From: Apostichopus japonicus | Taxonomy: Eukaryota > Echinodermata > Holothuroidea > Aspidochirotida > Stichopodidae | Length of the DNA: 64,000 nt | Reading direction: 5' to 3' | NCBI RefSeq assembly: GCF_037975245.1 | Contig: NC_092576.1 | Coordinates: 35,256,611-35,320,610 of the forward strand | Shown here: positions 5,541 to 55,249 of the stretch, one piece after another | Numbering within the stretch: the first letter of the stretch is position 1 | Layout of the letters: each line of letters starts with the position of its first letter | The notes under the pieces: generated by a model | Database searches by the model: none | What the model was told of the DNA's origin: nothing | The model's input: the letters and a program-made list of their open reading frames with translations, nothing else | Position numbers and translations under genes: made by a program

Positions 5541-5548
5541 AAATCTCT

Positions 5549-5561
5549 CTCTCTCTCCACC
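5549..5561 (+). repeat. left copy of a 13-bp direct repeat bracketing the 30-kb interval
   Basis: CTCTCTCTCCACC lies 9 bp before the first GGTCTATGTGGGG motif. The same 13 bases occur in the same orientation at 35825-35837, just outside the motif cluster at the other end. This could be a target duplication or recombination-site remnant of an element between them. Because it is partly a CT microsatellite, chance identity is quite possible. Confidence 0.35.
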
Positions 5562-5570
5562 CCTTGCACT

Positions 5571-6695
5571 GGTCTATGTGGGGCCTGGCACTATTGCTTC
5601 TATATTAGGTGCGAATTTTCTGATTGGTCAGTGTGGGGATTCAATACTGCCATCTATTTAACAAAGTTTTTCAATATTGGTGCATGCAAGTAACTACCAA
5701 AAAAACTATACAGCTTATTAAAGCCTAAAAGAGGATGGTACTGCCCTTATCTACTTAAAAATATGGGAATTACATTAAATTTTGGTTCAAATTGGGTTAG
5801 ATAACCAAATCCCAGGGAATGCCATCTGCACATAGTAGGGTTTTTGCATTCCTGGGGCCTACAGTGCCATAACTAGAAATTATACAAAAAATCACTAAAA
5901 TTCATTAACTCCTTGATAAGGAGGGGAGCATTTATCATTCTTTGATATTCTTCATGGTTTCTTCACTATTCTTTTTTTAAAACTGGAGATATTTACCAAT
6001 ATATGCATTTTGATCATGGGGTGATGCATACCCACCTCAAACAGCAAATAAGGCTAATTTAAAAGATTTCCACTTTAACCAAACCATTACCAAAAACTGT
6101 CATTTAAAATGTTCTACACTTAGAAAATTATGTTCTTCATATGTCCAAGCAGTTTCAGCAAATTGCAATCAGTAACAAAAAAGTTATTGCAAGTTTCTGG
6201 GAGGTCATACTCCAATTTTTTACAATTGACAGTTATGGCAGGTATGGTCTATGTGGGGCATCTTCTAAATGCTAACAAATAACATGTAGGAATAAAAAGA
6301 AAGAAATAATTACATTTTAACATTTATATTAACATCTACTTTTACCCTCTATATAATATTTTACCATTCTATGCATAAAATTAGCAATTATACTAATTAT
6401 AGATATCCAGTTGGTCTATGTGGGGTTTGCACAATAGAAAACAATTTAACAATTTCTAACATATTCATTGAAACCTTTTGTTTTTCTCATATATGATTAA
6501 GCTAAAAGCATTTTAAATGTTCAAATTTAAAATTGTTAATTATTTAGTTTTTTTTAAAGTGAAAACTGGAAGGAGAGAGTTACATTCAATCATTGCACAT
6601 GAGTTCATGGTCTATTTGGGGTCATTATGAACTTCAAGTGGGGGCGCTCTTTGGTCCATGTGGGGTCTTTTTTGTTTTAAATGGTCTATTTGGGG
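5571..6695 (+). promoter_or_regulatory. left cluster of six GGTCTATGTGGGG-type motifs
   Basis: The 13-mer GGTCTATGTGGGG occurs at 5571-5583, 6246-6258 and 6413-6425. One-base variants with TTTGGGG occur at 6609-6621 and 6683-6695, and GGTCCATGTGGGG at 6653-6665. All six are in plus orientation. The first copy is flanked by GCACT on the left and CCTGGCACT on the right, and the outer right-hand copies have a similar frame (GCATT ... TTTGGCATT on the complementary strand). The intervening sequence is AT-rich and otherwise featureless. The same motif occurs mainly inverted at 35712-35796, so the two clusters look like subterminal protein-binding sites of one large element. Binding by the zinc-finger recombinase encoded between them is an inference. 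Confidence 0.6.
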
Positions 6696-6885
6696 TCTTT
6701 TAAATGAGGATAAATTATGGGGTGATGGGTACATGAGTGTGTGGGGGGGGGGGTGCTTGTGCACACCTCTAGTAAACACTCTGCAGGGCTACGCCACTGG
6801 ACATCTTGGGTAAGGGTGCAGGACTCTTTATAAACAATTGTATACTAATAAGTGTTGTATTCAGTTGCATAGCTGTGGGTTTAGC
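6696..6885. other. G-run-containing spacer before the satellite array
   Basis: A short stretch with a run of about 12 G near 6743 and a GTGCTTGTGCACAC palindrome-like word. It leads into the tandem array and has no gene. Confidence 0.4.
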
Positions 6886-9800
6886 AAATACATGAAGGGT
6901 TGAACAACTAAAACCAGCAGTAGTTCACTGATGAAGGGTATGATGGCTCATTAACAGCCCAACTTTTGGAAGCTTCCTCATTGAAATAACTATAGTGGGG
7001 GGGGGGGGTTGCATGCACCCCTTACATACAGAAATTTAGGATTATATATGTGCAAACAACTACCAGCAGTAGTTCACTGATGAAGGGTATGATGGCTCAT
7101 TAATGGCCCAGCTTTTGGTAGCTTCCTCATTGAAATCACTATAGTGAGGGGGGGGGGGGGGGTGTTGCATGCACCCCTTACATACAGAAATTAAGGATCA
7201 TATATGCAAACAACTACCAGCAGTAGTTTACTGATGAAGGTTATGATGGCTCATTAACGGCCCAGCTTTTGGTAGCTTCATCATTGAAATCACTATAGTG
7301 AGGGGGGGGGGGTTGCATGCACCCCCTTACATACAGAAATTTAGGATTATATATGTGCAAACAACTACCAGCAGTAGTTTACTGATGAAGGGTGTGATGG
7401 CTCATTAACGGCCCAGCCTTTAATTGATAGCTTCCTCATTGAAATCACTATAGTGAGGGCGGGGGGGTGTTGCATGCACCCCCTTACATACAGAAATTAA
7501 GGATCATATATGCAAACAACTACCAGCAGTAGTTTACTGATGAAGGGTATGATGGCTCATTAACGGCCCAGCTTTTGGTAGCTTCCTCATTGAAATCACT
7601 ATAGTGAGGGCGGGGGGGTGTTGCATGCACCCCTTACATACAGAAATTAAGGATCATATATGCAAACAACTACCAGCAGTAGTTTACTGATGAAGGGTAT
7701 GATGGCTCATTAACGGCCCAGCTTTTGGTAGCTTCCTCATTGAAATCACTATAGTGAGGGCGGGGGGGGGGGGGTTGCATGCACCCCTTACATACAGAAA
7801 TTTAGGATTATATATGCAAACAACTACCAGCAGTAGTTTACTGATGAAGGGTATGATGGCTCATTAACGGCCCAGCCTTTGATAGCTTCCTCATTGAAAT
7901 CACTATAGTGAGGGCGGGGGGGGGGGTTGCATGCACCCCTTACATACAGAAATTAAGGATCATATATGCAAACAACTACCAGCAGTAGTTTACTGATGAA
8001 GGGTATGATGGCTCATTAACGGCCCAGCTTTTGGTAGCTTCCTCATTGAAATCACTATAGTGAGGGCGGGGGGGGGGGGGGGTGTTGCATGCACCCCTTA
8101 CATACAGAAATTTAGGATTATATATGCAAACAACTACCAGCAGTAGTTTACTGATGAAGGGTATGATGGCTCATTAATGGCCCAGCCTTTGATAGCTTCC
8201 TCATTGAAATCACTATAGTGAGGGCGGGGGGGGGGGGGGTTGCATGCACCCCCTTACATACAGAAATTAAGGATTATATAAGCAAACAACTACCAGCAGT
8301 AGTTTACTGATGAAGGGTATGATGGCTCATTAACGGCCCAGCTTTTGGTAGCTTCCTCATTGAAATCACTATAGTGAGGGGGGGGTGTTGCATGCACCCC
8401 CTTACATACAGAAATTTAGGATTATATATGTGCAAACAACTACCAGCAGTAGTTTACTGATGAAGGGTATGATGGCTCATTAACGGCCCAGCTTTTGGTA
8501 GCTTCCTCATTGAAATCACTATAGTGAGGGCGGGGGGGGGGGTGTTGCATGCACCCCTTACATACAGAAATTTAGGATTATATATGCAAACAACTACCAG
8601 CAGTAGTTTACTGATGAAGGGTATGATGGCTCATTAACGGCCCAGCTTTTGGTAGCTTCCTCATTGAAATCACTATAGTGAGGGCGGGGGGAGGGGTGTT
8701 GCATGCACCCCCTTACATACAGAAATTTAGGATTATATATGCAAACAACTACCAGCAGTAGTTTACTGATGAAGGGTGTGATGGCTCATTAACGGCCCAG
8801 CTTTTGGTAGCTTCCTCATTGAAATCACTATAGTGAGTGGGGGGGGGGGGTGTTGCATGCACCCCCTTACATACAGAAATTTAGGATTATATATATGCAA
8901 ACAACTACCAGCAGTGGTTCACTGATGAAGGGTATGATGGCTCATTAACGGCCCAGCTTTTGGTAGCTTCCTCATTGAAATCACTATAGTGAGTGGGGGG
9001 GGGGTGTTGCATGCACCCCCTTACATACAGAAATTTAGGATTATATATATGCAAACAACTACCAGCAGTGGTTCACTGATGAAGGGTATGATGGCTCATT
9101 AACGGCCCAGCTTTTGGTAGCTTCCTCATTGAAATCACTATAGTGAGGGCGGGGGGAGGGTTGTTGCATGCACCCCCTTACATACAGAAATTTAGGATTA
9201 TATATGCAAACAACTACCAGCAGTAGTTTACTGATGAAGGGTGTGATGGCTCATTAACGGCCCAGCTTTTGGTAGCTTCCTCATTGAAATCACTATAGTG
9301 AGTGGGGGGGGGGGGTGTTGCATGCACCCCCTTACATACAGAAATTTAGGATTATATATATGCAAACAACTACCAGCAGTGGTTTACTGATGAAGGGTAT
9401 GATGGCTCATTAACGGCCCAGCTTTTGGTAACTTCCTCATTGAAATCACTATAGTGAGGGGGGGGGGGGTGTTGCATGCACCCCCTTACATACAGAAATT
9501 TAGGATTATATATGCAAACAACTACCAGCAGTAGTTTACTGATGAAGGGTATGATGGCTCATTAACGGCCCAGCTTTTGGTAGCTTCCTCATTGAAATCA
9601 CTATAGTGAGGGGGGGGGTGTTGCATGCACCCCCTTACATACAGAAATTTAGGATTATATATGTGCAAACAACTACCAGCAGTAGTTTACTGATGAAGGG
9701 TATGATGGCTCATTAACGGCCCAGCCTTTGATAGCTTCCTCATTGAAATCACTATAGTGAGGGCGGGGGGGGGGGGTTGCATGCACCCCCTTACATACAG

Positions 9801-10880
9801 AAATTTAGGATTATATATGCAAACAACTACCAGCAGTAGTTTACTGATGAAGGGTATGATGGCTCATTAACGGCCCAGCTTTTGGTAGCTTCCTCATTGA
9901 AATCACTATAGTGAGGGGGGGGGGGGTGTTGCATGCACCCCCTTACATACAGAAATTTAGGATTATATATGTGCAAACAACTACCAGCAGTAGTTTACTG
10001 ATGAAGGGTATGATGGCTCATTAACGGCCCAGCTTTTGGTAGCTTCCTCATTGAAATCACTATAGTGAGTGGGGGGGGGGGTGTTGCATGCACCCCCTTA
10101 CATACAGAAATTTAGGATTATATATATGCAAACAACTACCAGCAGTGGTTCACTGATGAAGGGTATGATGGCTCATTAACGGCCCAGCTTTTGGTAGCTT
10201 CCTCATTGAAATCACTATAGTGAGTGGGGGGGGTGTGTTGCATGCACCCCCTTACATACAGAAATTTAGGATTATATATATGCAAACAACTACCAGCAGT
10301 GGTTTACTGATGAAGGGTATGATGGCTCATTAACGGCCCAGCTTTTGGTAACTTCCTCATTGAAATCACTATAGTGAGGGGGGGGGGGGTGTTGCATGCA
10401 CCCCCTTACATACAGAAATTTAGGATTATATATGTGCAAACAACTACCTGCAGTAGTTTACTGATGAAGGGTATGATGGCTCATTAATGGCCCAGCCTTT
10501 GATAGCTTCCTCATTGAAATCACTATAGTGAGGGCGGGGGGGGGGGGTTGCATGCACCCCCTTACATACAGAAATTTAGGATTATATATGCAAACAACTA
10601 CCAGCAGTAGTTTACTGATGAAGGGTATGATGGCTCATTAACGGCCCAGCTTTTGGTAGCTTCCTCATTGAAATCACTATAGTGAGGGGGGGGTGTTGCA
10701 TGCACCCCCTTACATACAGAAATTTAGGATTATATATGTGCAAACAACTACCAGCAGTAGTTTACTGATGAAGGGTATGATGGCTCATTAACGGCCCAGC
10801 TTTTGGTAACTTCCTCATTGAAATCACTATAGTGGGGGGGGGGGGTTGCATGCACCCCCTTACATACAGAAAGTTAGGAT
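6886..10880 (+). repeat. satellite array, about 26 units of roughly 153 bp
   Basis: The unit is anchored by ACTACCAGCAGTAGTTTACT. It recurs near 6921, 7062, 7215, 7367, 7521 and so on up to 10748, which gives 26 units averaging about 153 bp. Each unit contains TGATGAAGGGTATGATGGCT, then CGGCCCAGCTTTTGGTAGC. Next come the 12-bp palindrome TCACTATAGTGA, a G run of 7-17 bases that varies between units, and TGCATGCA followed by CACCCC. The G run and the following CACCCC can form a hairpin in each unit. Variants (GTAGTTTACT versus GTGGTTCACT; TTTTGG versus TTTGATAG) recur in blocks, as in arrays that spread by unequal exchange. No coding frame is maintained. The array sits near the left end of the motif-bracketed interval. 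Confidence 0.95.
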
Positions 10881-13800
10881 CATAAATAATAGGGAGTTTT
10901 AAGCTGGATCTTTACATGAATAGCTCCAATACATCATATTAATAGTTGCAGCTAAATGTCGTTCTAGCTTTTGATATATGTTTACATATGATATACTTTC
11001 AGAAACATAGACAAGAAAAATCACAAAATAAAATGCAAATTCAAATATTTCAATTCATTTTATTGTTTTATTGCCCATCTTTGTGGAAATTGATTGATAA
11101 ATTGATTGATAAATTGATTAATTTACAGAATTCCAATTGCAAGTTGAAATGATTTATGTAAACAGCATTCAAATGGCTTGTGGAAGATTTAAGGAGCCCA
11201 CAACATTTCAGTACTTATCATTTAGGTAATCAAAGCAATAAACATACAAATGAATTAGTCATGGCTACTACAATTAGTATAAAGTGTCCAATCAAGTAAA
11301 ATGGCTCTTGATTGGTGAAAAGCACTTGCAAACCTCTGTTATAGATGGATTAGTCTTCAAATTGAGTAATATTCATGATAAAAATAACAATGTTAATACA
11401 ATAGCAGTTATGCAGGCCCTGTTTTTACCACGTTATTTGATGCTGTCTTACCTATAAACAATTGTGAAAATAACTAGACATTAGATGACTTTGTTGGACA
11501 ACTTCTTGCACCGTCATGGATAATTGTCACCAACTTTCATCTAATGAAACCCATTATGCCATCTTTGTGCAATCGCATAATAATTAATATTTGGGATAGA
11601 TAGGTTAATGCTGTATCATTGCATAACCCCATTTGTCAATTGTGTTAGATTTATGATCCAGCCAATGTAAAAAAAATCACTTATAATTGGTACTTTGCAT
11701 TCAATAATGTGAGCAAATTCCCAGTGGGATTGGGTATGGTGAAATTAAACAAAATATGACATAATGGAATAATACCTACAAGAAAACCAAAAAAATTCAC
11801 CTCATCACACCCACCCATACAAAAAAGTATTGCTTTAAACACAATTTTAATTTTCATCATTTGAAAAATGGGGTCACAGTAGGGTTTTAATGTAATTCCC
11901 ATTCACCTTTATGGTGTTTGTTTTTCATTGGAACAGAATCAGACCTGGAAACAGGCATGTATGCAAGTATAAAACTTCTCATAAATAGTAAGAACCCGAG
12001 GTGAACTTGATATGAGCTATGTTTGAACATGACACCAATGTGCCTTCAATATGAATTTAAAAACTGCTCTTTGCAACTACAAGATATCAGTATAATGGAT
12101 TTCACTTGATGAACCTTAGTAATCGAGGCAACTTACCTTGGACCTGCATTACTGAACACCTCTAAAGAAACACCACTGAAGTATTATTGGTTTCGATGAT
12201 AATCGTAACCTATGCATTCATGCATGAGGATAGTGTTTTCATGTATGTGTTTGTGCATTTGTGTGATGCCTCACTTTTAAACACGATAACTCAAGAAGGG
12301 AAGGTTGGACGAATCTCATATTTCGTATGTAATTGGTACACGTTCAGTACAAGATTTTATTGAGGTCAAAGGTCAGTTGGAATCACCAGACGCCAAATTG
12401 TGGAAACCTTGTTTTATAAGCTACCGTATCTCCCACAGACCAGTCTATCAGATAGCATGTGCATTACGCCTTATATGAAAAGGAGGCTATTGAAAATTGG
12501 CTTATGGGCATCTGTAGAATCTAAAACTCAAATTGAAACTCAAACATATTTGCGTTGGCTTCAACGTGCCGCTCGGAAGCCTTACTTTGCGTGCCAAAGG
12601 GTGTACTTTGTACGTTCACTTTTCATCACGTTTATGATTATGGGACAAACCTGGCTAGGCCTGTGAGCAATTTTATGTTGTATAGGCCAGCAACGGTTGG
12701 TTAGAATAGGGTTCGTTAACACCACAACGTGAAGAATACCATTCAGAATACCAATACACTTAAGATGGCAAAACATCTCATTAATGATTTCTTAAGGCAT
12801 TTTCCTACTGGATATCAGTTATAATTCGCAAAGTATAGAACAAAGTTGAGACAAGTTTGCTGTTGTTTTTGCTAGGATTTTTGAAAGATAGCTGCTCTTA
12901 CAACCTCAGATTTTCATTGCATAAAAGATCGCTTTGATTTAGGCAGTGTAACGGAGTAATAGCGATATTTTTTCATACATCAATCTGCAGCTAAAAGACA
13001 AGATAAATAATGGGGCAAATGTACAAAGCTGCGCTAATCGATTAGCGGTTAAAGTAGTAAGGTATTATATAGGCTTAGGACTCGCGCACACCTAGCTACT
13101 GTATATAGTATATACCTAGTAATATAGGAGCCATAATGTAACAGAAGCCAATCTATTTCGTAGGTATTTTTAATTGTTTAAATCATTACAATAGGCTTAG
13201 CTGCTTATTCATGTTTCTGTGACATGTTTTTCTTTGGGCAACACTTACTTTTGGTGGAAAAGTTTAAATTTCATAATGCTATAAAACCTGACTTGCGAAT
13301 GCGCAATTACTTAGCACCATGTACCTGCCTAAGTGCTTAACCTTTGTTCATAGAAAGTATTGATGTGGCAGATCTGTACTTTGGAGACATGGACAACAAT
13401 CAAAGGCTTACTGGCAAGTGGAATTTGGCAAGTAGATGTTTAGTCACGGTCGCTTGTAACAGCAAGTACTTTTAAAAATATTTTTCGAGGCCTGAAAACC
13501 TTCAAAACATGATTTCTTATGGTAGAAATCATGGATTTTGTTAATACATGGTAAAAGGATTTGCAATATGAGATTTAAATTGTGGATACCTCTAATACTT
13601 GGTGTGTGGATTCATAACATTGAGTACAATACCCCTATTGTTTTAGGTGGAGGTGGAAATAGCCACGTAGAGTAGACTGACCTGTGTTTATCATGCCACA
13701 TTGTTATTGCAACAGCTAGTTCTGGTTATACTAACAAGCAGAAGTCTAGGGCATTGATGTCATCGAAACCTCAACGCATTTTGCATTCTCATATTATGAC

Positions 13801-13944
13801 AAACCCTCACCACTCAGCCTGAGGGAAAACTAAAGTAATGGACATATATAGGACAACAGTACACATAGTTCAATCTAAATAGAGGTATTCACACTTGAGA
13901 AAAACAATGAGACATCAAAGTCGAAGGGACAATCCAACACTAAA
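10881..13944. other. no gene recognised; possible dispersed repeat near 12.27-12.40 kb
   Basis: AT-rich sequence with a short (TTGATTGATAAA)n-like stretch at 11090-11125. Around 12280-12375 the text AACTCAAGAAGGGAAGG ... TCAAAGGTCA resembles common dispersed repeats of marine invertebrates, but I cannot name a family. No exon with both splice signals and protein-like content was found on either strand. Confidence 0.4.
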
Positions 13945-14067
13945 TGCTGTGAATATTGTGGTTACCAACATATGGTTGGATGTGACAATTGCCCAGCATA
14001 TGGAAAGGACTGCCGACTATGCCAAATAAAGAATCACTATGCTTCCATGTTCAAATCAAAGAAGTAG
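13945..14067 (+). pseudogene. Ty3/gypsy-type gag zinc-knuckle remnant
   Basis: The plus frame reads CCEYCGYQHMVGCDNCPAYG and then KDCRLCQIKNHYASMF before a stop at 14065. Gag-pol polyproteins of invertebrate Ty3/gypsy elements carry 'CxxCGxxHxxxxCPAYGKxCxxCxxxNHFASVC', and this is clearly that double zinc knuckle. The last cysteine is replaced by Phe and the frame ends at once, so the copy is dead. The pol fragment of a similar element lies 2 kb downstream on the same strand, with a MITE between them, so both may be parts of one decayed insertion. Confidence 0.75.
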
Positions 14068-15326
14068 TTATTTCTGTGATTGTGCATGACCTAAAAATTG
14101 AAAATTTTGGTCAAAATTGACCTTTAATCTGTCAAATTTACTGTACTACGTTTTCCTTGCCACTTTGAGAAATTGTATCTCGTGATTCCTATACTCAACC
14201 ATACAAAACTTTGTATGATTTTGAATACTCAAAAAAAAAAAAATGCCTAATAGAACTACCGTCATAGGCGTAGGGAGACCAATTTGATTGGGGGGGGGGA
14301 GGGTTGTAACGACTTGCCCGAAAAATATATGTGCACGTTCCACATGCATCAGTTTTACATCGCATGCAAATAACATACAATAATTTTCCGTCTTATTACC
14401 CTTCCATTTGGTAAGAATTTTTAGGGAAGTCATTACAATATTCATGGTAATATTTCTAATAAAACACATTGCAAATAATCTTTCTTTCAGTAGTTGCCCG
14501 AAAAGTTATCAGCATATTGCCCGATTTTTTACAAAATATTTGGTTGGGGTGGGGGCTAATAAGTTTGTGAAATGAGTGCCAGTGGTTATGTATCGAAAAA
14601 AAAGTTCAGAACAAAAGTGCAGTCGCGAAAGATTGGGTGCTTTACTACACTGACCGTATCGTTGACGAGTAGCGCGAGGATGGGGGGGGGGCTACAAAGC
14701 AGCAGTCAGACTTTTCTGGCTTCAAAACCTATCCATTTGGATTTTCAGCCACTACATCCCCCCCCCCATACATAGTACGCTCCGACCAGAATTCATCCGA
14801 GTACCAGATGCAGATCCACCTAGCAACCGAGGTAACTTGCGTGAGGACTCCAACGAACAACCACTGATTTATTTTGATGCCTTCATCACTTTAGCCACCA
14901 CTCACATGGGACCTATTCTACGTCTGACGATACATGCGCAAGTGTGAGGTCCTGAAAACATAATTAAAGTGATTTGCCTTGCCATCCTTGTTTCAAATTT
15001 CATAGAAATGTATTCTTGTAGACCTAGCAAAATATTTAAACTGACACAGTCCCGTTGGAAGTGTGTCACGGGTGGCATTAAAAGTCATTGGTGGTTTAAC
15101 ATGCTGGCGTATGACGACTTTTGGCCAAATTTGCGCTAAGCTCAATATACGAACTCGGATCTGGGCTGTGCCTAATTAGTTAGTTATTTCAATTATTAAT
15201 AATGGCGTATGAGGAAATGCACCATTTTGTGGTATGACTCCCAGGACAGCAAGTCGAGAAACTCACATAGTCGCGGCAGATAGCTTCCTTCACCTATATG
15301 TCTGGGGACATTTTGGGACATCGTTC
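14068..15326. other. G-run-rich repeat-like spacer
   Basis: Contains several G or C runs (14290-14300, 14680-14690, 14758-14768) in contexts such as CATAGGCGTAGGGAGACC and TACGCTCCGACC. These resemble short non-autonomous elements, but matching ends and a target duplication were not found. No coding exon is recognised. Confidence 0.35.
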
Positions 15327-15334
15327 CTATAGGC

Positions 15335-15688: not shown

Positions 15689-15941
15689 CTATAGGCCTAT
15701 ATCTGAGGCCCTTGGGTCATTCCTTTACCGACTTGGTGCAATATAATGTGCCCATTTCAAAGTAAATTTATTCACAGATTGTTAGTTGTCATGGGTTCGA
15801 ACAAATGAGGGGTATTTTATCCTGAAACATAGGCAAAATGGGGCTGGGGTTCCACTTCGCCACATCATTTGTCAACTTGTACTGTGTTCAAGTGCCATCT
15901 CCAGCGATCTGGCAGGTATTCAAATCTGAAAGTTTCTTGTT

Positions 15942-15990
15942 ACGCTGCGCGCCAACCAATGGTGGCGCTCTGCTTAGATAGTACTTTCGG
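15942..15990 (+). repeat. fragment of the 26.6-kb hAT MITE family
   Basis: The stretch around GCCAACCAATGGTGGCGCTC ... TGCTTAGATAGT matches the interior of the MITE at 26576-26965 (CCAACCTGTGGTGGCGCTCC ... GCTTAGAAAGTG). A third piece lies inverted near 20881-20990. No ends or target duplication were identified for this copy. Confidence 0.55.
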
Positions 15991-25400: not shown

Positions 25401-28400
25401 TTCATGTGAGAGTGTATTTGTTGCGGAAATGGGAGTGCTAACTTTGAGTTGCTCCTATTGCCTGTTTGCCCACATTACGTCATTCACAAAATTGATGGGT
25501 TTGAACAAACATTGCTTTTGGTGAGAAACTGGTCAATTTGAAGCCAGATTTCTACAAGAAGAAAATGTCGAATTGAGACAATTTTCTCATGATTAGAAAA
25601 AGAACAATAAGAACTATGAAAAAATGTATCCAAATCTTCCACAACGACAATTCCTTTAAGTAGTTGCAAGAACTATTAAGTAAGTTTTTTTTTATTTCTT
25701 CGTTGGACAGGCATCCAGCAAAGGGATTTCAAGGTATCACTGTTGTGGCAAACTTCAGAAACTTTCATAAGTCTGCTATCTACCCATGGAACACATCAGT
25801 AAGACCCACAGTAGCTTTCACCCATGTTATGAAAGTATTATTCTAGCTGATCTAATTCACCAATTATTGAATGGACCAATTTGATCATGCTGCAAGTCCC
25901 ACTGTACATAGGAGAAATGTATATTGCCAGAAGGCTTGGTATGTATTTAAACTGTGAACAGGACATGACTCTGCTTTGTCAATTCTAAATATTCTATAGC
26001 TCCCCGTGGCACATTGATTATCCAATCCTTGGCTTTCACAAATTGCAGACTGACATGATCAAGAATCCACTCACTTTCTCAGCCTAGAACTGTTCGTAAA
26101 CAACTCCTTCACTCCCCCTGCCATCTCTGAAATCTTCTTCATCTGCAAGACGTGGTTATACACAGTTTTTTTGGCAGATGCACCCCCACCAGCAATCAGG
26201 AGTAGATGCTGGCCAGCCCTGTCAAATACAGAGTAACCTGCAGAAAGTAAATCAATATGTACGAGTTATGCCAAAATTATGCAGAGAAAATGTAGTCAAA
26301 GATTTCAAAGTAAAAATTGTAATCTTCTAATAAACCTGAATGGCAGCAAACATCATCTTTGTAGGTTACATTTAATGTCAACCTTGTATTGCACGGACTA
26401 TGCTCTACAAGTAAAATACTTAATAAACATTAATGCTTAGGGCAAAAACTAAATTACCTACATATGTCATGCTTAATATTTACTTGTTCACAGAAGAAAG
26501 AAACTTTTCATACCAATATGTCCTTCAGTAGATCATAAACTTTGTAGTCCTTAAACTATAATATACTCATTCTATCAGTGGCGGAGCGTCCATACAGTCG
26601 GGGGGGGGGGGGGGAGCGGATGCCCCCCTGACGGATCCAAATGGACTGCTGGCGTCCTTTTCAGCTTTTTACTACATTTACTTATTCCCGATTATTGACT
26701 TTTTTATTGCGCTCTCAACTACCTATTGACCTTTGTCAGATTTTGTTGGTGTAATTTTCTGACAAAACGGCGATGACACCTATTTATTCTTTGTTTATCT
26801 GCAAATTAGCAAGGCCCGGAAAGGGTCATTTCCTGCTATCTAGGGAGTATCTTTACTCAAAAACGCTCCACGCCAACCTGTGGTGGCGCTCCGCTTAGAA
26901 AGTGTCGAAAGCGCCCCTACAGGCCTTCTCGCCCCCTCTGACCAATACTCCTAGCTCCGCTACTGCATTCTATATTCCAATGAATTTTAGAATTTAAACC
27001 TTTGAAATGGAACCATTGTCACTTTTCTCCAGAACATCATAAACTATGCTCTTTTAGCTCTAAAATAAATTTAATCTCTCAGGACAGAGTATATTGAGTC
27101 TGCCCTGTAGATCATCTAACAGGGGGCTTCGTAGAAACCACCCTTTTCATAATATTTTCATGACGATTATCTCAATGCATATTTGGAACAACATGATAAT
27201 GTACTTCTCAGGTGAATCAGACAATTACATAATAATATACATCACAAAGTTACACTGAATTAACAACGGCAATTTATGTAGCACAATTGATCAATTTAAT
27301 TTTGGGTTTGCCATGCAGTGGTGTAATGGCCATACCAATATTTAAACGGGTAGTCACAGTGAGAAAATTCAGTATAAAACGACAGCAAAGTAACATATCA
27401 TGGTGCAAATTTGTCCAGTTAATGGTAAAATCAATAACCCATACATTCTAGTCATAATTCATTCTATGGATACTTTATAACATACTTTCATTAATGGACA
27501 TCTTTTCTGGTTTTTCATCCACGTCATCGTATTTTATCCTTGTTTCCATTAAAATACGAGAAAACATTGGACTTCCCCTCTGTGAAAATATAAGTAAATT
27601 AAGAAATGATTACTATCTGAGACACTTATATCATGCTGTGTTCAATAAATTATTTTGCTATAAAGAAATTCTTCCAGAATTTAACAAAAGCACTTCTAGG
27701 AAAAAATATGACACTAAAATAGTATTTGTATTGCATGTGTTACCAAGACAGCAAAGCCATGTTCTCTTTAATTGGTGTGTCGACCCTCATAGATGTATTC
27801 AACCGCCCCTCCCTGCCATCTGATCACTTCACTTAATTACCATTTCACCAACCAAACAGGAATGAAGGGTTACTGTAACTAATTCACCTGCCATTTAATG
27901 TTCTATAAAGACAATTGCACATATCTCAGTATGAGATATGCTCAATTATGCTAGCTAAAATGTGTTTTACATATGTTTGCATTGTTCCATCTTTTCCGCT
28001 TAAACACACTTAAACAAAGAAACTAAACTTTCCAAAATGGACAGGCTAATGCCCGTGCTGTTGTGAAAATTTAATTATTTAAATTTTCTAAATTTTAGAT
28101 CACATGTTATAGAAATTTACACTAATAAGTTAGAGATAGCACTGTATATTTATATGTTGGTAATAATTGTTACATGAATATATAAGCAAATACAAAAGTA
28201 CCTTACAGCTTCACTGATTTTGTATGACACTTATATTGAGAAATTGAGGAATTTTCATTTTGGCCTTGAATTTAAAATGGTCTCATAACTATATCTGATA
28301 CCTTTAACTTATGTACGGCTACCAGATGGTTATCAAGCCGGATAAGCATCTTGGCATGGCATCCCGGCACAATACAATCTCGAGGTCTCCGCTTGTATTG

Positions 28401-31400
28401 CGGCTCTTTGGAACGCCTGATAGGATCACTACATAGGATAATAAAATTAAGGTAGTTATGAATGAATTGTAATGATAATTTAATAGAATATCAGCAAATC
28501 ATGCATCTATTGCATTTGAGAAAGTCTGTTCTAGCCACTTAATGCATCATTAGATCTAACATTAGACCTAGTAAGATGTGAAGGGTTATTTTTAAATAAG
28601 TTTGTAGTATCGAAATCAAAATAAAACCCAATACATGTCCTTCATCAATGTTTAGACCATGAGGTTGAATGCACACTAGTCAAACAGATGCTGTCACTCA
28701 AGTTGGGTCATGAATCTGCATGAGTTCCCTTAAAATTACAAATATATCTGATATCAGAATTCTATTTCTATCAGATTCCTTGAATACTTTAAGCAACCAT
28801 ACTCTACTTACATTTGTCTTGACTGGTACAAAAGTCGCATTCTGCGGCCCTTGTCTTTGACCCGGTGTTGCCTGGCAATGTGGTGGGCAAGATAAATCAC
28901 CCGCTTGCCACAGATGACACACTGTCGTGCCATTCTGTTTTCCTTATTAGTTGCCTAAAAGGGTAAAAAACAATTGTTACTGTAATTTGACCAAGAAATC
29001 ATATACTTCTGTGATGACTACCTTCCTCATTCCAATGTGAAATATTGGAAACTAAGGTATCCTATAAGGCACATATTAGGTCCACACATACCCCCCCCCC
29101 CACCCAATTTCTCATAAAAAATACCCCCTCAAAGTAGAAAATTAACAATTTACACAGTAAGCCTGAAGATTTATTAATTGTGCTACATTTGTTAGTGTTG
29201 TCTAAACAAATTGGGGTGTGATCAGAGTCACACAACTGGGATATGGCTACTGTAGGTTTAGGTGTGCGTTTCTGTATTGAGTCGTACTCTGATCCTCCCA
29301 CCTATTCACCGGATGTTGGTAAAATAATGTGATTGGAATTGTGTAATGCGCAGCCGCAGAAAGCATATTACGTATGCTCAATTATCATGGATGCGTAGCA
29401 ATAGGGTGACAGTACTATGCTTTGCACAGCCACTAGTGTTTGATATCACTACACCTAAGTTCAGACCATTGGACTGTCAGGACCTGACAATGGATGACCA
29501 GGACTTAAAAATGGAAAATTGATATATTTAGATACCCCAGCACCAGGGGTGAATGTTGGGGGTGGGGACCCCCCATGCAAAACTTGGGGGGCTTCTTCAA
29601 ACTGTTTTTACCGGTCCTTTACATCCTATTGATGACGTCATACAATTTTCAGCTCATTTGCATATTCGGTTTATTGATGAAAATTCATTAACCTATTTTC
29701 TGACACTAAATTACTCTATATATTTGGAAACACAGACTTTTATACTTTGGAGCGTTACCATGGTTACTAGGTCAGTCCGATTTCCCTCATCTTTACAGGG
29801 TATAACCGCTATGGTGTCCGGCCCTTTCCAAAATAGGATGAAACTTGTAGGTGCATTACTTCCCCGGGGTAATAGGGGGGTCGTTTTGAAAAAAATCTTA
29901 AACGGTCATAATTATTAGTGTTACTATGTACTGGAAATTCCTGACCATTCTACTTTGGAGCGTTACCATGGTTACTGAGGTGGTCCGATTACGGCCAGCT
30001 TTTCAGGATTCTCCTGCTAGGGTTTCCCCTTTCCAAAATAGAATGAAACTCCTAGGTGTGTCACATTTCCAGGTGGTAGGGGGGTCAGTTTGAACAAAAA
30101 TGCGAAACATCCAGCATAAAGCCTCAGAAGCGTAAGCCATGGAACGCCGGAAAGGCATAACAAGCCCCCACCACTCCCCACACCTCCGAACCGCCAAAAT
30201 AATCTCAGATTCATAATCAGCAACCCAATGAGTACCAGATGAGGTGTGATTTGTTTGTTTTTTGAAACACTCCCATTCGGGCCCCCCAATGGTTTTTCAC
30301 CCCCCACACCCCCACACAACACTCAATTCCAAAGTAGACTTCAGATTTGTAATCAGCGTGTCACGAAATACCAGAAAAGATACACATTTATTGCCTTTGT
30401 GACAAAAAGTTTTTTCACCTAAAAAAACCATAAGGTACCCCCTTTGCAGTTTTGGCCAAAACTGACCCAAAATCGATTTCGCCCAAAATGACGTAACAGG
30501 GGGTAATCGATGCTCAGGAGCCTAAAGCTGCTACTGCCAGGTCCATATCTGCCTTCATTTGGAGATACGTGGTCCCAAAGGACCCGATAGAAATACATGT
30601 TCTCTACAAGTGCAAAATTTGGAAAACCCCCTCTTTTCAGCCCCCTCTCTTGTCCTATCTGAAAAACCCATCAACATTAAAATTAGACGTGGAGTAGAAG
30701 ACACCCTGGTCTTTGTTATACATCAATTTCGTGTTATTTTCTGACCAGGAAAGGTTCTTTGTCTATATGATTTATATTTGCGCCAAAAATAGGTGTTTTT
30801 GTCTTGAAAAGTTAAAAAAGTACCTATTTTTGGTACCCCTTCCTTTCCACTGAGGGTATGTGACAGGACTGTCTATATGTTTTGGAGGCCTCCTCAAAAT
30901 AGTTGTTTTTCACCGGTAGTAGCTACCCTATACAAGGACGCCTAGGCTGACGTCAGGATCAGATCCCGACGTCAAGATTTTATCCAGATCTAGTGCAAAG
31001 CACCTTATATAGAGATTCGGTGTTATTCTTGTTGCATATGGTGTGAAAAAAAATAAGCAAGACGAAAGGAAATGTGATATTGACACCATTGCTACATTTA
31101 GCACTGAGCACTAGCTGAACTTACAATAACTCCCTCTCGAAGTAATGACAACATACCGCTGACTTCATTTCTGATGTAGAAGGCTTGTCTACGTTGTCAT
31201 CCTCATCACCATCTTCCTCTTCCTCCCCCTCCTCATCATCATCATCACTGCTTTTCTCCTCAATATCAAAAATAGTGTCATCCTCATCTTCCTCAATCTC
31301 CTCATCAATATCTTCATTGTCAGTCTCCACTGTTGGACTCATTGCAGGCTAAAATAGATTCAATAATGTGTCATAATTATATAATATTTGCCAAGATATT

Positions 31401-34400
31401 ACTGCATGCAAACAAGCAAATATGACTGAAAGCACTTTTAATGAAGGTGATCACAAATAAGAACACTAACCATGCACTGTAGAGTGTACCATATTTAATG
31501 GAATTAATTAAAAATGTTCCAACTATAAATTTTGGTAGGTTTGAGTGCTTTGCTATAATATCCTACATATTTGCCATTTCATTAAGTCTCCAATGAATAT
31601 CATAGGGAAAGGTGGTGATATTTAGAACACTAATAAAGAAAGGGTACATGATCCCTTAAGTATGATATTATTTTCAAAATACCACAGTAAATCTTTTTCA
31701 TATCTTTGAAACAGGGTCACTTCTCAAAATAATGACCATAATATTGTGCTTTCACACATATTTTCCAAATATATGGTACAGAACAGTGACAGCACTGTTA
31801 AATTAATAATTCAAATCACATGTCCATCACACATATTCATCCGTGATCAATACACAATTCCCACACATCTCATCAAAATAAAAGCCTCCCACATTTACCC
31901 CACAGAGTGCAGATGAACACAGGTGACAATTATCTGTATACGAGTCATTTCAAATGTGAATCCAATGCCATGCATGTAGTTTGTATGCTCATTAGTGATC
32001 CATGCTCAGTTTGTCAGTAGTACTACTGGTTTCCAATTTTTGAGTCAACAATCTATCATTGGTCATTGTGCAGTAGGTGACCCCACTTGATGATAACGCA
32101 CATTGCCAGCTAGTAACAATTATTGTACTTGTACTTAAAAAAAAAATCATAAAACGTACAACTTGAAATAACAGCTGTCAAGGTTGCAAATTTTAAATTA
32201 GCTCCCATTTTTCCATTCAGAGGCTGCAGCTTAAATTTTAAGACCAAAGTCCTGTTCAGAAACATGCGCTACATAAAATTAGCAGGATTACTAATTGGTA
32301 GGCATTCTACAGCACTTAGTTTATAACTCTGCTTTACCTGATTGGGAACATCTTCTTCATCTTCATACTGTTCTCCTCTCAATATTGCATAAAGGACCTA
32401 AGGATGAAAGGAGAAGAATGTCATACATGTACTGACCAATATCACTTAATTAGAAGTACTCCCAGAGGTATAATTTTAAGCTAAAGTGACTATGTACAGA
32501 TAATGTAGGTAATACTGTACTAATACTGACCGTTCCTCACATAGTGAGATTACAAATAATATATGAGCTGCCAACTATCAGATTCCAAAGTATAAAGTAC
32601 TGTATGCATTAATAAATAATGATGACAAGGAACAATTATGAAAAATTGATGTGCAATTACACGGTAACAAAATTACCAAAATTTCTTACTTTTTGAAGTA
32701 AATAACCTAAATAAGAACAAAAGCTTTCTGTAATGAGTTGATGTGGGTGTCACATGAATGGTATGACCCAATGTTGTAGCCTTATAGTGATTATGATCAC
32801 ACACAATAACCTCTGAATAGCTCACTACATATGATCCAGGATATATTCCATTGTTGCTAAAAGAAATGACACTTAACAAAGAAAAAACTAAAGGATTTTG
32901 CTGTGCTCAGTGGGAGAACTATATAAGGGAAATGGGTGGGCAATGTCAAACCAGATTTTGTCCTTGTCCCCCAGGTGTCCCCCCTCCCCTCCTACAAATG
33001 AGATCTCATAAAATAATATGTCTATGTCTATGTATGTAATTTTACTTCATTTTTTTCCAAATTTACAACATACTGTATTTACTGTAGAGCCCTCCCTTTT
33101 ATTATTGTTATATATGTTATGACCCTGTTCCCAAAATTACATTTGCCCCATAGTTGCCCCGATACTGAGGCTGGTGTCACCACTGGATATACTATTGGCA
33201 TGTTTCTGAAGAATATCCCATCCCTTCCATCCAAGATTCTTGCAGGGCCTTTGGAGAGGTACAGGGCCTAGCTAGGTTGACCTTTATTTACGCTAAAAAA
33301 GGCTGACCAGTACTGCTATTTCTCCAATGCTTAAATGCATGGTCCAAAAATTAAGAGTGCAGTTCTCTGAACAGTTGTGTAAAATGATGTACCATATGGC
33401 ACAGTTCTGGCCTTTGCTGCTTTTGGGAATTCAACTGCCCCCCCCCAACCCAACTTTTAGTTTAATTTGCCACCACAGAACATGTTAAGCTACCAGGAAA
33501 TTGTTAGTCTATCTATTCTAACACCATTCAATTTTTGCTATAGAAAAATTTTCTATTTATCTACACTTTTTTAAGAAAAAAAATCTGTTGTAATTTATTG
33601 GAACACAGCCTGGTTCAAATGTTTGGACTAACTAAATGTTCCTTGCAAATTGCAATCATAACCTGAAGGTAGCATGGATATGAGATTGCAGTTTGTTCAA
33701 AGTTTGTTCCTGAAGGCAACAGTTAGAGAAGCTTAATACAATGGATGTGCTATAGAAAGCCATAGAACATATAATGCAAATATCAGCAACAAAGGCCCTG
33801 CTTTCTCTTGATACTTAAATTTTTTAAGTGCAGTATAGTGTAACTTCAGGCCTAAGCCTCAGAAGATAAGTAACATAATAACCAACAAAGAAGCCTCCAG
33901 TTAAAGTTCCAGAATTATAGATGATCCAGTTTGGTTGAATGAGAACGATATGATCACTGCCACATGTCTACACATAGATGTATGTTTCTAGAATATATAC
34001 CAAAAGTGAAAATTGTATGCCACTGCACTGGCAGTCATTGACTAAAACAACTACATGTAAGCAATCAAGATTACAGCTAAACATACGTCATTTGCATCTA
34101 ATAGCAGATCACAAATTGCTTGAAAATAATCAACTTTTGTTATCAAGTATGAGTCCTTTCTTCAGGTGTTTGCTTGACGTTTCAAGTAAGACTATATTTC
34201 ATCTAAAGTATGAATACCAGTCCCAGAATGGAGATATTTTGACATTCAGAAAAGTACTGGCGTACTACACTATTAAAGTCCTTATCTTGTGCTGAAAATA
34301 AACTGCATGTTCGTACACAATAACAAGCCCAAATTGTCAACACCAATATGATGAGGAAGCCATGACATATTAATAAATCAACTTGGAAACAACCCCTCAC

Positions 34401-34485
34401 CCCCGCCTTTTCAGATATACCTAGTATAGTTTCATACATGAGCCAATGTGATAGTTTTACTCACGTGGGAAGCTTGATCTGCCAT
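18237..34485 (-). CDS. Crypton-like tyrosine recombinase with two C2H2-like zinc fingers, 14 coding exons, 661 aa
   Basis: Minus-strand coding exons: 34485-34465, 32397-32338, 31348-31157, 28954-28812, 28428-28302, 27579-27486, 26237-26075, 23772-23546, 22199-22015, 21523-21248, 20139-19990, 19405-19295, 19000-18881, 18353-18237. Each has an AG acceptor and GT donor, and phases join throughout (1,986 nt including stop). The start is ATG in the context AATATGGCAGATC, after a 5' UTR splice acceptor. Protein order: acidic region (aa 31-85), zinc fingers at C103/C106/H116/H121 and C157/C162/H173/H178, an alpha-helical core-binding region (about 205-342), and a catalytic domain with R374, K409 (in DHKT), R490 (in THIRY), H515 and Y524 (MAHTVATQEHYY). 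An Asn-rich linker, a basic stretch (PKRKGR) and an acidic tail follow. The family is related to Crypton tyrosine recombinases, which cut and rejoin DNA through a 3'-phosphotyrosine. His of the usual HxxR is Thr here. No decay is visible, so it is active or domesticated. Confidence 0.9.
19990..20139 (-). CDS. recombinase exon with the catalytic tyrosine
   Basis: A 50-codon exon, phase 0 on both sides (acceptor CTCTTCAG, donor GTAATG). It encodes LNPVSKRGVATLMAHTVATQ followed by EHYYNALQAD. The spacing from His (MAH) to the second Tyr is nine residues, as in 'LGHxxxxTTxxYxH' of tyrosine recombinases, so the second Tyr of YY (Y524) is the likely nucleophile. Confidence 0.88.
20881..20990 (-). 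repeat. inverted fragment of the hAT MITE family in a recombinase intron
   Basis: The minus strand reads ATGGTGGCGCTCCGCTTAGA and a preceding 'CCATTTCCTGCAATCTAGGGGGTATTTTTGTC' region shared with the MITE at 26576-26965 (given here only in outline). It lies in the intron between the exons at 21248-21523 and 19990-20139 and shows no intact ends. Confidence 0.6.
21248..22199 (-). CDS. recombinase exons with Arg I, Lys and Arg II of the catalytic domain
   Basis: The exon at 22199-22015 (2 nt of a split codon, then 61 codons) encodes DLLCVRNYLITELLVAGAPR and SGVITGFTLQQFRKA. It carries the first catalytic Arg (R374) in the 'RxGxI..xT..EF' block. The exon at 21523-21248 (92 codons) begins VDDHKTATSHGPARLVF, giving the beta-hairpin Lys (K409), and ends NPTHIRYTAATK with the second Arg (R490). 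The intervening FFLENKGGKVTRV matches the family's 'FF.t..G..l' turn. The intron between them (21524-22014) contains part of an interspersed repeat also found at 39.7 kb. Confidence 0.88.
21690..21980 (+). repeat. copy 1 of an interspersed repeat shared with 39.7 kb
   Basis: Words such as CTGATTGGTCGAATT, CTTGGCTAATATCTTAGTTT and GATGAACATGTC occur in the same order and orientation at 39735-39985, with moderate divergence. The family was not recognised. It lies in a recombinase intron here and upstream of the receptor gene there, so it is mobile or once was. Confidence 0.65.
23546..23772 (-). CDS. recombinase core-binding exon
   Basis: The exon begins with 1 nt completing an Asn codon (acceptor TTTTCAG) and ends with 1 nt before donor GTGAGA. 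It encodes KTKAPKTIMKYLESVKKLGT and ERLATALIKGLRPLAKKRER. Relatives carry 'PxTIxxYLxSLxxFxxFL...' at this place, the helical core-binding half of the tyrosine recombinase clamp. The preceding exon 26237-26075 (SYSVFDRAGQHLLLIAGGGA ...) supplies the first helices. Confidence 0.85.
23880..25260 (-). repeat. diverged intronic tandem duplication of about 0.7 kb
   Basis: Unit 1 (about 23880-24545) and unit 2 (about 24550-25260) share ordered words: ATCATTCCCCTA, TTGATACTT, ATACTTACCAT, AAGCAATACC, GATGAACCAC, CAGCATGTTG and AACAACAACAA. Within unit 1 a 26-bp inverted repeat (ATTACAATGTGGCAATCCAA at 24083 onward and its complement at 24339-24366) frames about 280 bp. The whole lies in the 2.3-kb intron between the exons at 26075-26237 and 23546-23772. 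Confidence 0.65.
26576..26965. mobile_element. 390-bp hAT-type MITE with perfect 8-bp target duplication
   Basis: The ends are CAGTGGCGGAGCG and, inverted, CAGTAGCGGAGCT. CATTCTAT flanks both sides (26568-26575 and 26966-26973), the 8-bp duplication typical of hAT. The interior has a G run after the left end and no open frame. It lies in an intron of the recombinase gene. Two fragments of the same family lie at 15942-15990 and 20881-20990, so this family is locally frequent. Confidence 0.9.
28302..28954 (-). CDS. recombinase zinc-finger exons
   Basis: The exon at 28954-28812 encodes RMARQCVICGKRVIYLAHHI then ARQHRVKDKGRR, a CxxC...H(x4)H finger. It ends with 2 nt of an Ile codon. The exon at 28428-28302 completes it and encodes RPRDCIVPGCHAKMLIRLDN then HLVAVHKLK, a C(x4)C(x10)H(x4)H finger. 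Paired fingers of this form stand before the recombinase domain in many cnidarian, mollusc and echinoderm relatives. They presumably bind DNA. The motif clusters at 5.6-6.7 and 35.7 kb are candidate targets, by inference only. Confidence 0.85.
29530..30760. repeat. G/C-run repeat-like block with an internal 200-bp duplication, in a recombinase intron
   Basis: ACTTTGGAGCGTTACCATGG begins at about 29743 and again at about 29951. Each is followed by CCCTTTCCAAAATAG and a GGGGGGTC...TTTGAA stretch, so about 155 bp is duplicated with a spacing near 208 bp. The surrounding sequence (29540-29590, 30270-30310, 30420-30480) is rich in G or C runs and resembles a decayed non-autonomous element. Ends were not found. 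Confidence 0.5.
30948..30974. promoter_or_regulatory. 27-bp near-perfect palindrome with paired CRE-like sites
   Basis: TGACGTCAGGATC, one A, then GATCCCGACGTCA gives 13-bp arms with a single mismatch. The left arm holds the full CRE/ATF octamer TGACGTCA, and the right arm holds CGACGTCA. It lies in the recombinase gene's intron just downstream of the G/C-run block, and may be a bZIP site or part of a transposon end. Confidence 0.5.
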
Positions 34486-34512
34486 ATTGCTGACTGTACT
34501 ACCTTTACGATG
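34465..34512 (-). CDS. recombinase exon 2 with the start codon
   Basis: The acceptor TTTTTCAG precedes CATCGTAAAGG..., then ATG at 34485-34483 opens MADQASH and a GTGAGT donor follows. The next exon continues VLYAILRGEQYEDEEDVPNQ in phase. The 27 nt before ATG are 5' untranslated, so a further non-coding exon lies upstream. Confidence 0.7.
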
Positions 34513-35540
34513 CTGAAAAATAAATGCAGAATACCTATGACAATACAGTATGACTGCCAACTATGATGGACTTATCAAGGAACAATAATAGGTTTGCAAA
34601 TAGCAAGGATGCTAGACATCTAATAAAGCAAATTACATTACTTAATTACTGCAAGACTGTCAAGACTGCAAGATTGTCATTGGCAGTAAGATTAAGCATT
34701 GCTCATATGAATTGTGACATATTGTACATGTACAGTACAACTACTGAACTGGCTATAGGCCCCAAAGCCTACAAATTAAGTGTCCTTATACTCCCTTAGG
34801 CCTCTAGGTTAGGCCGTTGCTACTGTAGGCCAGCCTATATGGTAGTTGTATAGCACTTACAACTTTTGAAGTAAAGAAAATGGTTCTATATCACTCTAGA
34901 AACACATTCACCTATTGGCTAGCAAGGCCAGTATGCCCTAAGTTAGGCCGAGGTTAGCCAGGCCTTAGTTAGGCTATGGTTAAGGAACTATGAAATCTTA
35001 TCATGTATAAGCCCCCAGGAGTATCCCTACATGGTTTTCTTTTGCTTAACGCATTAGCATTTCTCTTTTAATTTGGTAAAATTGAACTTGGCCCAATACC
35101 AAGATCTAGTTTTACAGCACGTAGTACATTAGTCTGACCATACAGTAGAACCATATGCAAAGTTAAATAAGGCCTATGCCACTGAATTTTCGAATGGGGT
35201 ATACTCGCCACATAGGCCAATAAGTAACATTAGCCTAGGCCTATAAGTTAGTACAACTGAAGGAATAAGTAAAAAGGGAACTTGCATGACTGTGACGAGA
35301 ATCGGTAAGAATACAGTACCTTTATAACTGGTAGGTACTGATACTACTACTAGCGTAGTACTAATAGTATTATTAGCCTATATATAGTACTCAGTAGGCA
35401 TAGCCTTTATCGTATGAATAGGCCCTAGGCACTATATTTCTTCACTTTTAGGTACTGTTTCCTTGAAATATAACCCACATAAAATTTATCAGCCTTAACT
35501 ATGGGCTTAATTATTCAATAACATCATTTGCAACACTTAC

Positions 35541-35690
35541 TGTATTCTTTTCGTGGATGAATTCGTTACGTTAATTCGGACAATTTGCACTATCGAGTAT
35601 TGGTTAACTTTTTTGAAAAGCCGGTGACTGACGAAATGTGTACGCACATGCGCATAAATATGAGTGACGTCATAGAACCACGCAAGTGCC
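35541..35690 (-). promoter_or_regulatory. probable first non-coding exon and promoter of the recombinase gene
   Basis: On the minus strand a strong donor, ACA then GTAAGT (35540-35535), could end exon 1. Just upstream lie an NRF1-like TGCGCATGTGCG (35654-35643), an AT-rich ATATTTATG (about 35662-35654) and a perfect CRE octamer TGACGTCA (35672-35665). The GGTCTATGTGGGG cluster follows 40-125 bp further upstream. The arrangement suggests that transcription starts here and runs inward. The exact start cannot be read from sequence. Confidence 0.5.
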
Positions 35691-35711
35691 AATTGCCCCG
35701 GAAATGCCAAA

Positions 35712-35796
35712 CCCCACATAGACCAAATGCACAGTGCTGAACCCCACATAGACCAAAAAATGGTCTATGTGGGGTTTTGTAAACCCCAAATAGACC
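35712..35796 (-). promoter_or_regulatory. right cluster of four GGTCTATGTGGGG-type motifs with a perfect hairpin
   Basis: The complement of GGTCTATGTGGGG lies at 35712-35724 and 35742-35754, and that of GGTCTATTTGGGG at 35784-35796. One copy is in plus orientation at 35762-35774. The middle pair forms a perfect hairpin, with 15-bp arms (ACCCCACATAGACCA / TGGTCTATGTGGGGT) and an AAAAA loop (35741-35775). The copies are mostly inverted relative to the six at 5571-6695, as expected for subterminal repeats at opposite ends of one element. The cluster abuts the recombinase promoter, so it may also be a self-regulatory operator. Confidence 0.65.
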
Positions 35797-35824
35797 AAAT
35801 GCACGCATTGTGCTAACCCTCCAC

Positions 35825-35846
35825 CTCTCTCTCCACCTCTCTCCAC

Positions 35847-40417: not shown

Positions 40418-55249
<14,832 letters not shown>

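Follow-up and report, generated by a model that had tools for sequence, protein, structure and literature searches.

The stretch of DNA analysed here (the window, 64,000 nucleotides of the holothurian Apostichopus japonicus, C16:35256611-35320610, C denoting a contig) contains a discrete element, E1, which occupies the interval 5562-35819, is 30,258 bp long and is flanked by TCCACC on both sides. E1 is probably a large animal DNA transposon mobilised by its own tyrosine-recombinase-like (YR) enzyme, whose gene reads inward from the right end. A preliminary description of the window had proposed an element of ~30 kb, bounded by clusters of a short repeat and moved by an internal recombinase, and this proposal is supported by a second full copy, by matching breakpoints and by unrelated flanks.

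The repeat that bounds E1 is the 13-mer GGTCTATGTGGGG, referred to below as the arm site. With up to one mismatch it gave 11 matches in the window, against 0.06 expected from shuffles. Six of them form a cluster at the left end, all on the plus strand, and four a cluster at the right end, three of these on the minus strand, just as had been described from the window alone (Table 1); the single interior site is at 18553. Genome-wide, 29 exact copies were found, which are clustered, against 3 for the reversed-pattern control; by position, 20 lie in E1 copies, four in one 33-bp satellite on C23, and five are singletons (three in regions without a match to the window, those on C7 and C11 with only dispersed-repeat matches). 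The C23 cluster was rejected as an element end, as the 33-bp satellite is unrelated to the element ends by alignment. At positions 5183-5622 of C23:9405001-9415000 this satellite holds many copies of the 13-mer and adjoins an open frame that looks protease-like by eye.

Outside each cluster lies a direct repeat. The shortest form common to both ends is TCCACC (5556-5561 and 35820-35825). The 13-bp repeat noticed earlier, CTCTCTCTCCACC, gave two matches in the window at up to one mismatch, both exact (5549 and 35825), where 0.01 were expected. The boundaries first drawn at 5549 and 35837 proved to be real breakpoints, because the alignment with the second copy, on C17, runs from window position 5546 to 35838 and then stops. 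In that copy the core is TCTCTCTCTCCACC on both sides; in the window copy it is TCCACC on both sides.

Copies of E1 were sought in one haploid-style assembly of 671.58 Mb in 35 contigs. A colinear second end-to-end copy was found at C17:21066630-21093432, where left-type and right-type 13-mer clusters lie 26.7 kb apart in inverted orientation. It covers 27,583 of 30,293 bases in 27 blocks at 91.1% identity. Its flanks are unrelated to those of the window, and no flank common to the two copies was seen beyond the ends; whatever else matches is dispersed repeat sequence: two stretches of 103 and 152 bp (77-79%) link the right side of the window to the interior of the C17 copy, and one of 780 bp (74%) links the interior of E1 in the window to the far right side of the C17 region. 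Looking for gene homologues enclosed by paired clusters, as had been proposed earlier, was therefore successful; the homologue in the C17 copy is decayed.

Seven further E1 ends were found beyond the two full copies, four of them left ends (C2, 94%; C17:24.048 and 24.073 Mb, 89%; C17:18.764 Mb, 80%) and three right ends (C20:7.913 Mb, 97%; C20:8.037 Mb, 71%; C6:8.316 Mb, 81%). Breakpoints coincide at the ends on C2, C17 and C20 and, more loosely, at the older ends on C6 and at C20:8.037 Mb. Flanks were compared for the window copy and six other ends with the low-complexity filter on, and none resembled another. The left ends at C17:24.048 and 24.073 Mb are identical to each other, and because the flank shown is identical too, they represent one duplication. 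The copy at C20:7.91 lacks everything to the left of window position 29117, carries a 7.3-kb insertion with a 5-bp repeat, and at its broken left edge also adjoins CT/CCACCT sequence. Older interior matches (76-79%) were seen on C1. Dropped from the list of ends were C6:14706704 (126 bp at 73%, away from the end), five right-end matches covering the CT tract only, and one self-inverted match.

The inward-reading gene described earlier as intact was indeed predicted as such, with 15 coding exons on the minus strand starting from the right end. The predicted coding sequence runs from the start at 34485 to the stop at 18237 and comprises 2058 bp including the stop (685 amino acids), with a single terminal stop; every internal exon boundary is AG/GT and in phase. 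The protein has an acidic stretch at the N-terminus, a pair of C2H2-like fingers, a middle portion in which no domain was recognised, and a catalytic-like region. The fingers are recognised at the level of pattern only, with no Pfam match, and the exons that encode them presumably form the arm-site binding domain. Just inside the right arm cluster lies the CRE-like TGACGTCA, which is kept in five of five right ends examined and is presumed to be part of the promoter of the gene, which would then abut the right cluster. Since this cluster overlaps the upstream region of the gene, binding there could also regulate the gene.

In the catalytic-like region the residues R, K, R, H and Y are present in the order of YR enzymes. 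Three paralogs are 34, 34 and 37% identical to the protein, and R, HKT, R, H and YY are conserved in those two whose sequences cover the core. Profile alignment to XerC/XerD/FimB/FimE is weak, but all five catalytic residues fall in register, and the hhalign score was 28.0, whereas 200 column shuffles scored at most 23.6 and the reversed profile 12.4. The assignment of the protein to the tyrosine recombinases, made from sequence, is well supported by the motif order and only moderately by the profile. A Pfam-A scan of the 685-residue protein at E≤1 listed only YL1 (0.0024) and DUF1644 (0.1), both below the cut-off, and the core alone gave no match to Pfam at E≤10. PF00589 did not match the protein; its genome search listed 16 places, none in the element. 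Among the viral contigs of IMG/VR, a profile of the enzyme (A1) gave 19 pattern matches, none of them confirmed. Weak matches to the recombinase core were also seen less than 40 kb from contig starts (C22:13912, C5:38046 and C18:9326; E 1e-4 to 6e-3), possibly a subtelomeric recombinase family.

Three copies retain the core of the gene, which is intact only in the window copy: the C17 gene is broken by stops and frameshifts, and the third copy (C20b, read in part) has an in-frame TGA. Substitutions were counted over 640 positions covered in the three copies (145 synonymous and 495 nonsynonymous sites). The ratio of synonymous to nonsynonymous changes was 11:3 on the window branch, 4:10 on the C17 branch and 22:10 on the C20b branch. 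The window-branch counts, which are small, are the signature of purifying selection on a constrained enzyme.

A second family came to light at the C17 copy. The DNA that touches its right core (AGCGCGGTGGTCC...) is the left end of another repeat, E2, of which at least 12 further left-end copies were found at 93-95% (40 of 98 candidates scored). Eight left ends were fetched; all are preceded by a CT tract, seven of the eight with CCACCT, and their flanks are otherwise different, while their first 74 bases are 97-100% identical. At C16:33.517 Mb, another E2 copy adjoins the E2 core from the other side with its right end. Taken as query, this right end gave 11 full-length matches (10 at 99-100% including itself, one at 96%) and eight partial ones, and the 99-100% identity of the right ends suggests that E2 has been mobile recently. 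Ten E2 copies pair a left with a right end in the correct orientation, 13.0-23.5 kb long, and two of these lie head to tail with one core in common; pairing was by position, the E2 sequence read being 3 kb at one right end and 6.6 kb beside the C17 copy. At this level of similarity, the left ends on C12, at C17:19.291 Mb, beside the C17 E1 copy and at C17:15.605 Mb remain without a partner, as does the right end at C17:26.721 Mb.

The paired copies show where the elements land. TCCACC is present on both sides of six of them (C21, C18, C17, C16a, C1 and C16e), and the copy C16b has TCCACCT on the left and TCCGCCT on the right, so that seven of the ten carry a TCCACC- or TCCGCC-type core on both sides. 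At the C7 copy both sides show just CT, and both flanks hold pieces of one minisatellite; CCACC was dropped as a part of the element, being absent on both sides of this copy. Insertions sit in (CT)n tracts, with or without CCACCT, and at the right edge in the window the CT tract continues into (TA)n. These junctions lead to the conclusion that the core derives from the target, a CT tract, usually with CCACCT and often continuing into (TA)n. The C17 core adjoining the E2 end is the same as the core next to other E2 copies without E1, and as read from the sequence it amounts to half an empty site. A similar repeat, with the ending ...GCCAACC(AACC)(A)AC, precedes the CT/CCACCT tract at two E2 left ends and at the broken left edge of E1 at C20:7.899 Mb; it may be a favoured landing repeat or the end of a third element.

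E1 and E2 have the same end geometry. On the left, 9 bp separate the core from the first arm site in the window copy and in seven of eight E2 copies (the eighth is the one without CCACC), and the second arm site lies 55 bp beyond the first in the window copy and in all eight. On the right, measured in the window copy and in a single E2 copy, 23 bp separate the last arm site from TCCACC, and the four outermost sites run -,-,+,-, with start-to-start spacings of 30, 20 and 22 in E1 and of 31, 21 and 32 in E2. The motifs themselves differ, being GGTCTATGTGGGG in E1 and GGTCC[G/T]TTTG[A/G]TG in E2. A combined pattern, CTCTCTCCACC-N9-GGTC, matched 17 places genome-wide, against 2 for its reversed form, and 15 of the 17 are left ends of E1 (4) or E2 (11). 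Both common descent with diverged motifs and a common constraint fit the shared geometry, and under either the arm sites are parts of the element ends with set positions.

Table 1. Features of E1 in the window, with candidate termini of E1 and E2.
Feature	Position	Strand	Remarks
E1 element proper	5562..35819	.	alignment with C17 copy and other copies sharing each end
Left core/target repeat CTCTCTCTCCACC	5549..5561	+	minimal TCCACC 5556-5561
Right core/target repeat TCCACCTCTCTCTCCACC	35820..35837	+	minimal TCCACC 35820-35825; 13-bp repeat copy 35825-35837
Left arm-site cluster	5571..6695	+	six GGTCTATGTGGGG-type sites at 5571, 6246, 6413, 6609, 6653, 6683, plus GGTCAGTGTGGGG (2 mismatches) at 5626
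Right arm-site cluster	35712..35796	-	order -,-,+,- at 35712, 35742, 35762, 35784
TGACGTCA (CRE-like), putative promoter part	35665..35672	-	
Tyrosine-recombinase-like gene	18237..34485	-	15 coding exons, borders predicted
Exons 1-8	34485-34465, 32397-32338, 31348-31157, 28954-28812, 28428-28302, 27579-27486, 26237-26075, 23772-23546	-	
Exons 9-15	23271-23200, 22199-22015, 21523-21248, 20139-19990, 19405-19295, 19000-18881, 18353-18237	-	
Two finger exons	28302..28954	-	CVIC..HIARQH from residue 103; CIVPGC..HLVAVH from residue 157
Catalytic-core exons	19990..22199	-	R398 (APRSGV), K433 (DDHKT), T511-x-x-R514 (NPTHIR), H539 (MAHTVAT), Y547/Y548 (EHYYN)
154-bp tandem array	6913..10884	.	~26 copies in window; about two units align in C17 copy
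Decayed Ty3/Gypsy-like gag/reverse transcriptase relic	13879..17481	+	common to both full copies, colinear in C17
E1 termini (circle-junction form, candidate)			right end ...GTGCTAACCC-core-CCTTGCACTGG
E2 termini (circle-junction form, candidate)			right end ...CAGCTGGC-core-AGCGCGATGG

No stop-to-stop frame in E1 exceeds 196 amino acids. Five open reading frames (ORFs) of the left half were scanned, of which one (16103-16552) gave RVT_1 (E 1.5e-6, 28.5 bits, below the cut-off of 29.6) and four gave nothing, so that among these no enzyme gene was recognised other than the decayed reverse transcriptase (RT). The gag and Gypsy assignment of the relic was made by eye. The 154-bp array differs so much in copy number between the two full copies that its size is evidently unstable.

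Several observations count against E1 as a transposon with its own recombinase. A search of this one assembly for the joined flanks of the window copy gave no joined site: it returned the two flanks, a partial match to the right flank (91%, C16:42354031) and a match to the left flank (72%, C3:9651397), in no case joined. Neither a two-sided empty site nor a circle junction was observed. The copies of E1 differ by ~9%, and E1 itself may for that reason be inactive. The core repeats are imperfect in the window copy and in the E2 copy C16b; the E2 copy C16d has TCCACCT on the left and only CT/CTAT on the right, which misfits a clean duplication, and C16c, whose left junction was incompletely read, stands outside the count of both-sided cores. 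In the enzyme, the His of the HxxR motif is replaced by Thr (Thr, Leu and Ile among the window protein and two paralogs), the hhalign probability is only 13.6% (P 0.002), and neither the enzyme nor its core had a significant match in Pfam, PHROGs, NCBIfam or PDB sequences. Three protein queries (E1 and the C1 paralog) detected no recombinase in the ten E2 intervals. The nearest match, C17:19350919 (33 amino acids at 61%, E 0.008), was rejected: an E2 left end and a 71% right-end match, 84 kb from each other, enclose it, and it has the wrong orientation for an inward gene. That E2 is driven by a recombinase is suggested by its geometry alone.

These points have to be set against other explanations of the same data. 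If the copies were segmental duplications with edges lying by chance in CT microsatellites and an ordinary host gene inside, few copies and edges in microsatellites would be seen, as they are, and the pair at C17:24.048 and 24.073 Mb does represent a duplication. However, two full and several partial copies share their end points although their flanks are unrelated, E2 has ten copies with both ends fixed, and two families have the same end geometry. This explanation is largely refuted and very improbable. A viral origin, with E1 as what is left of a large DNA virus that used a YR to integrate, like the endogenous nimaviruses in crustacean microsatellites, is improbable as well, if less extremely so. 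Nimaviruses insert in (TAACC)n by means of YRs that have C2H2 and SAM-like domains, and two relatives share predicted multi-exon YR genes, as passages of PMC10871703 describe; against this stand the shortness of the open frames of E1, the single RVT_1 hit among its scanned ORFs and the want of a confirmed IMG/VR relative for profile A1.

A different enzyme, such as a DDE-type transposase that makes target duplications of 6-7 bp, could also have moved the elements, with the YR-like gene as cargo or adopted by the host. The target-like repeats are short, the three protein queries found no YR in E2, and the YR call relies on a weak profile match and the motif register; yet the target repeats vary by site, the position of the gene and the layout of the sites fit a YR, and the ORF scan of E1 recognised no enzyme gene besides the decayed RT. 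We regard this as unlikely, marginally less so than a viral origin. Somewhat better placed, although still doubtful, is the view that the element is dead and its recombinase now serves the host. Only the window gene is intact among the three, and its branch is under strong purifying selection. But the arm sites and cores of the window copy are intact too, the enzyme of a selfish element is equally expected to be under purifying selection, and the C20b branch is also constrained. The suggestion in the preliminary description that the locus might be domesticated remains is needless, even though purifying selection acts on the window gene. Preferably, E1 is read as a transposon mobilised by its own YR-like enzyme.

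Fungi are established hosts of giant elements driven by a recombinase, and so are crustaceans, where the elements are endogenous viruses. The Starships of Pezizomycotina are described in passages of PMC12134995 as giant elements of 15-700 kb with one YR gene near one end reading inward and with short direct repeats. E1, at 30.3 kb, lies within this range and resembles them in its YR-like gene near one end, reading inward, and in its short flanking direct repeats. In contrast, its protein has no match to the DUF3435 (PF11917) captain domain in either Pfam search, its host is an animal, its gene has 15 exons and finger motifs, and its target is a CT microsatellite. Of cargo, the ORF scan recognised only the RT relic in E1, and the E2 copies vary in length between 13.0 and 23.5 kb. 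The likeness to Starships that had been drawn earlier thus holds as an analogy and fails as membership, in view of the animal host and the missing DUF3435 match.

Other recombinase systems differ in other ways. Lambda integrase holds arm sites with its N-terminal domain, and lambda systems have both arm and core sites. E1 is similar in having two classes of site, namely a short core and distal repeats that are specific to the family and keep a fixed orientation and spacing; it differs in its eukaryotic, spliced gene and in the Thr that replaces the HxxR His, and no accessory factors are known for it. Cryptons are small. E1 would, like them, be a YR-borne DNA transposon in an animal, but the window protein and its three paralogs have no Crypton YR or DUF3504 match in Pfam, E1 and E2 measure 13-30 kb with subterminal clusters of sites, and the two ends of E1 carry cores in direct repeat together with arm sites that are clustered and mostly inverted. 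PMC3212892 reports CryptonA/I elements from animals, sea urchin among them, and describes the animal ones as lacking terminal repeats. For the endogenous nimaviruses, passages of PMC10871703 report telomere- or rDNA-targeting YRs, an enzyme with C2H2, SAM-like and YR domains that is called arm-binding, insertion in simple repeats, and predicted multi-exon YR genes in two members. E1 has finger patterns and a simple-repeat (CT) target, which resemble the domain content and targeting described for them, the enzymes being compared by description only; they are large viral genomes with viral genes, whereas none was recognised among the ORFs scanned in E1. DIRS and Ngaro elements carry a YR together with their own RT/RNase H; the only RT seen in E1 is the fragmented relic, on the other strand and Gypsy-like by eye. 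E1 is filed as a variant of the recombinase-mobilised large elements, outside any named family.

The layout of E1, with family-coded distal arm sites, a short core and an enzyme whose N-terminal DNA-binding part stands apart, is that of a two-site integrase, and a mechanism can be proposed on this basis. The N-terminal zinc fingers would bind the GGTCTATGTGGGG arm sites in a family-specific manner, and the core-binding and catalytic domains would exchange strands at the core of ~6-7 bp (TCCACC[T]). The element would be excised as a circle and re-insert where the chromosome has a similar core (CT/CCACCT), leaving one copy of the core at each element end. Arm binding would set the identity of the family and the core would set the target; a second family with the same core and geometry and another arm motif, such as E2, is what this predicts. 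E2 copies lying head to tail on one core, and E1 at an E2 core, are what a two-site integrase would leave.

Other features were seen in the window outside E1. A tandem duplication of ~3.06 kb at 45171-48700 has identical ORFs of 155 amino acids at 45171 and 48233 and carries matching repeats resembling short interspersed elements at 46480 and 49539. An open frame of 560 amino acids at 52245-53927, with a cysteine-rich part and several hydrophobic segments, looks receptor-like by eye. A 20-bp minisatellite, TCCAAAATAATATAAGCATG, occurs at 57381-57774 and 58711-58865, in both orientations ~1 kb apart.

Among the titles and abstract openings listed by searches of open-licence PMC full texts (preprints excluded), none describes such elements in echinoderms. 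The second full copy of E1 and the related, apparently recently active family E2 point to an animal counterpart of the giant Starships of fungi. There is about an even chance that E1 and E2 represent a new animal superfamily of giant (13-30 kb) recombinase-mobilised transposons, with E2 recently active, one microsatellite target, a fixed geometry and family arm codes read by co-evolving zinc fingers, and that their enzyme is a eukaryotic arm-plus-core integrase that nests new copies at older cores. If so, animals too can move tens of kilobases in one step, by elements that are non-viral, recently mobile and resident in a deuterostome. The same geometry with different motifs would then offer a natural experiment on the separate evolution of core specificity and of the code carried by the arm sites, and with a target as precise as the CT tract the system might serve as a tool for the integration of large inserts.

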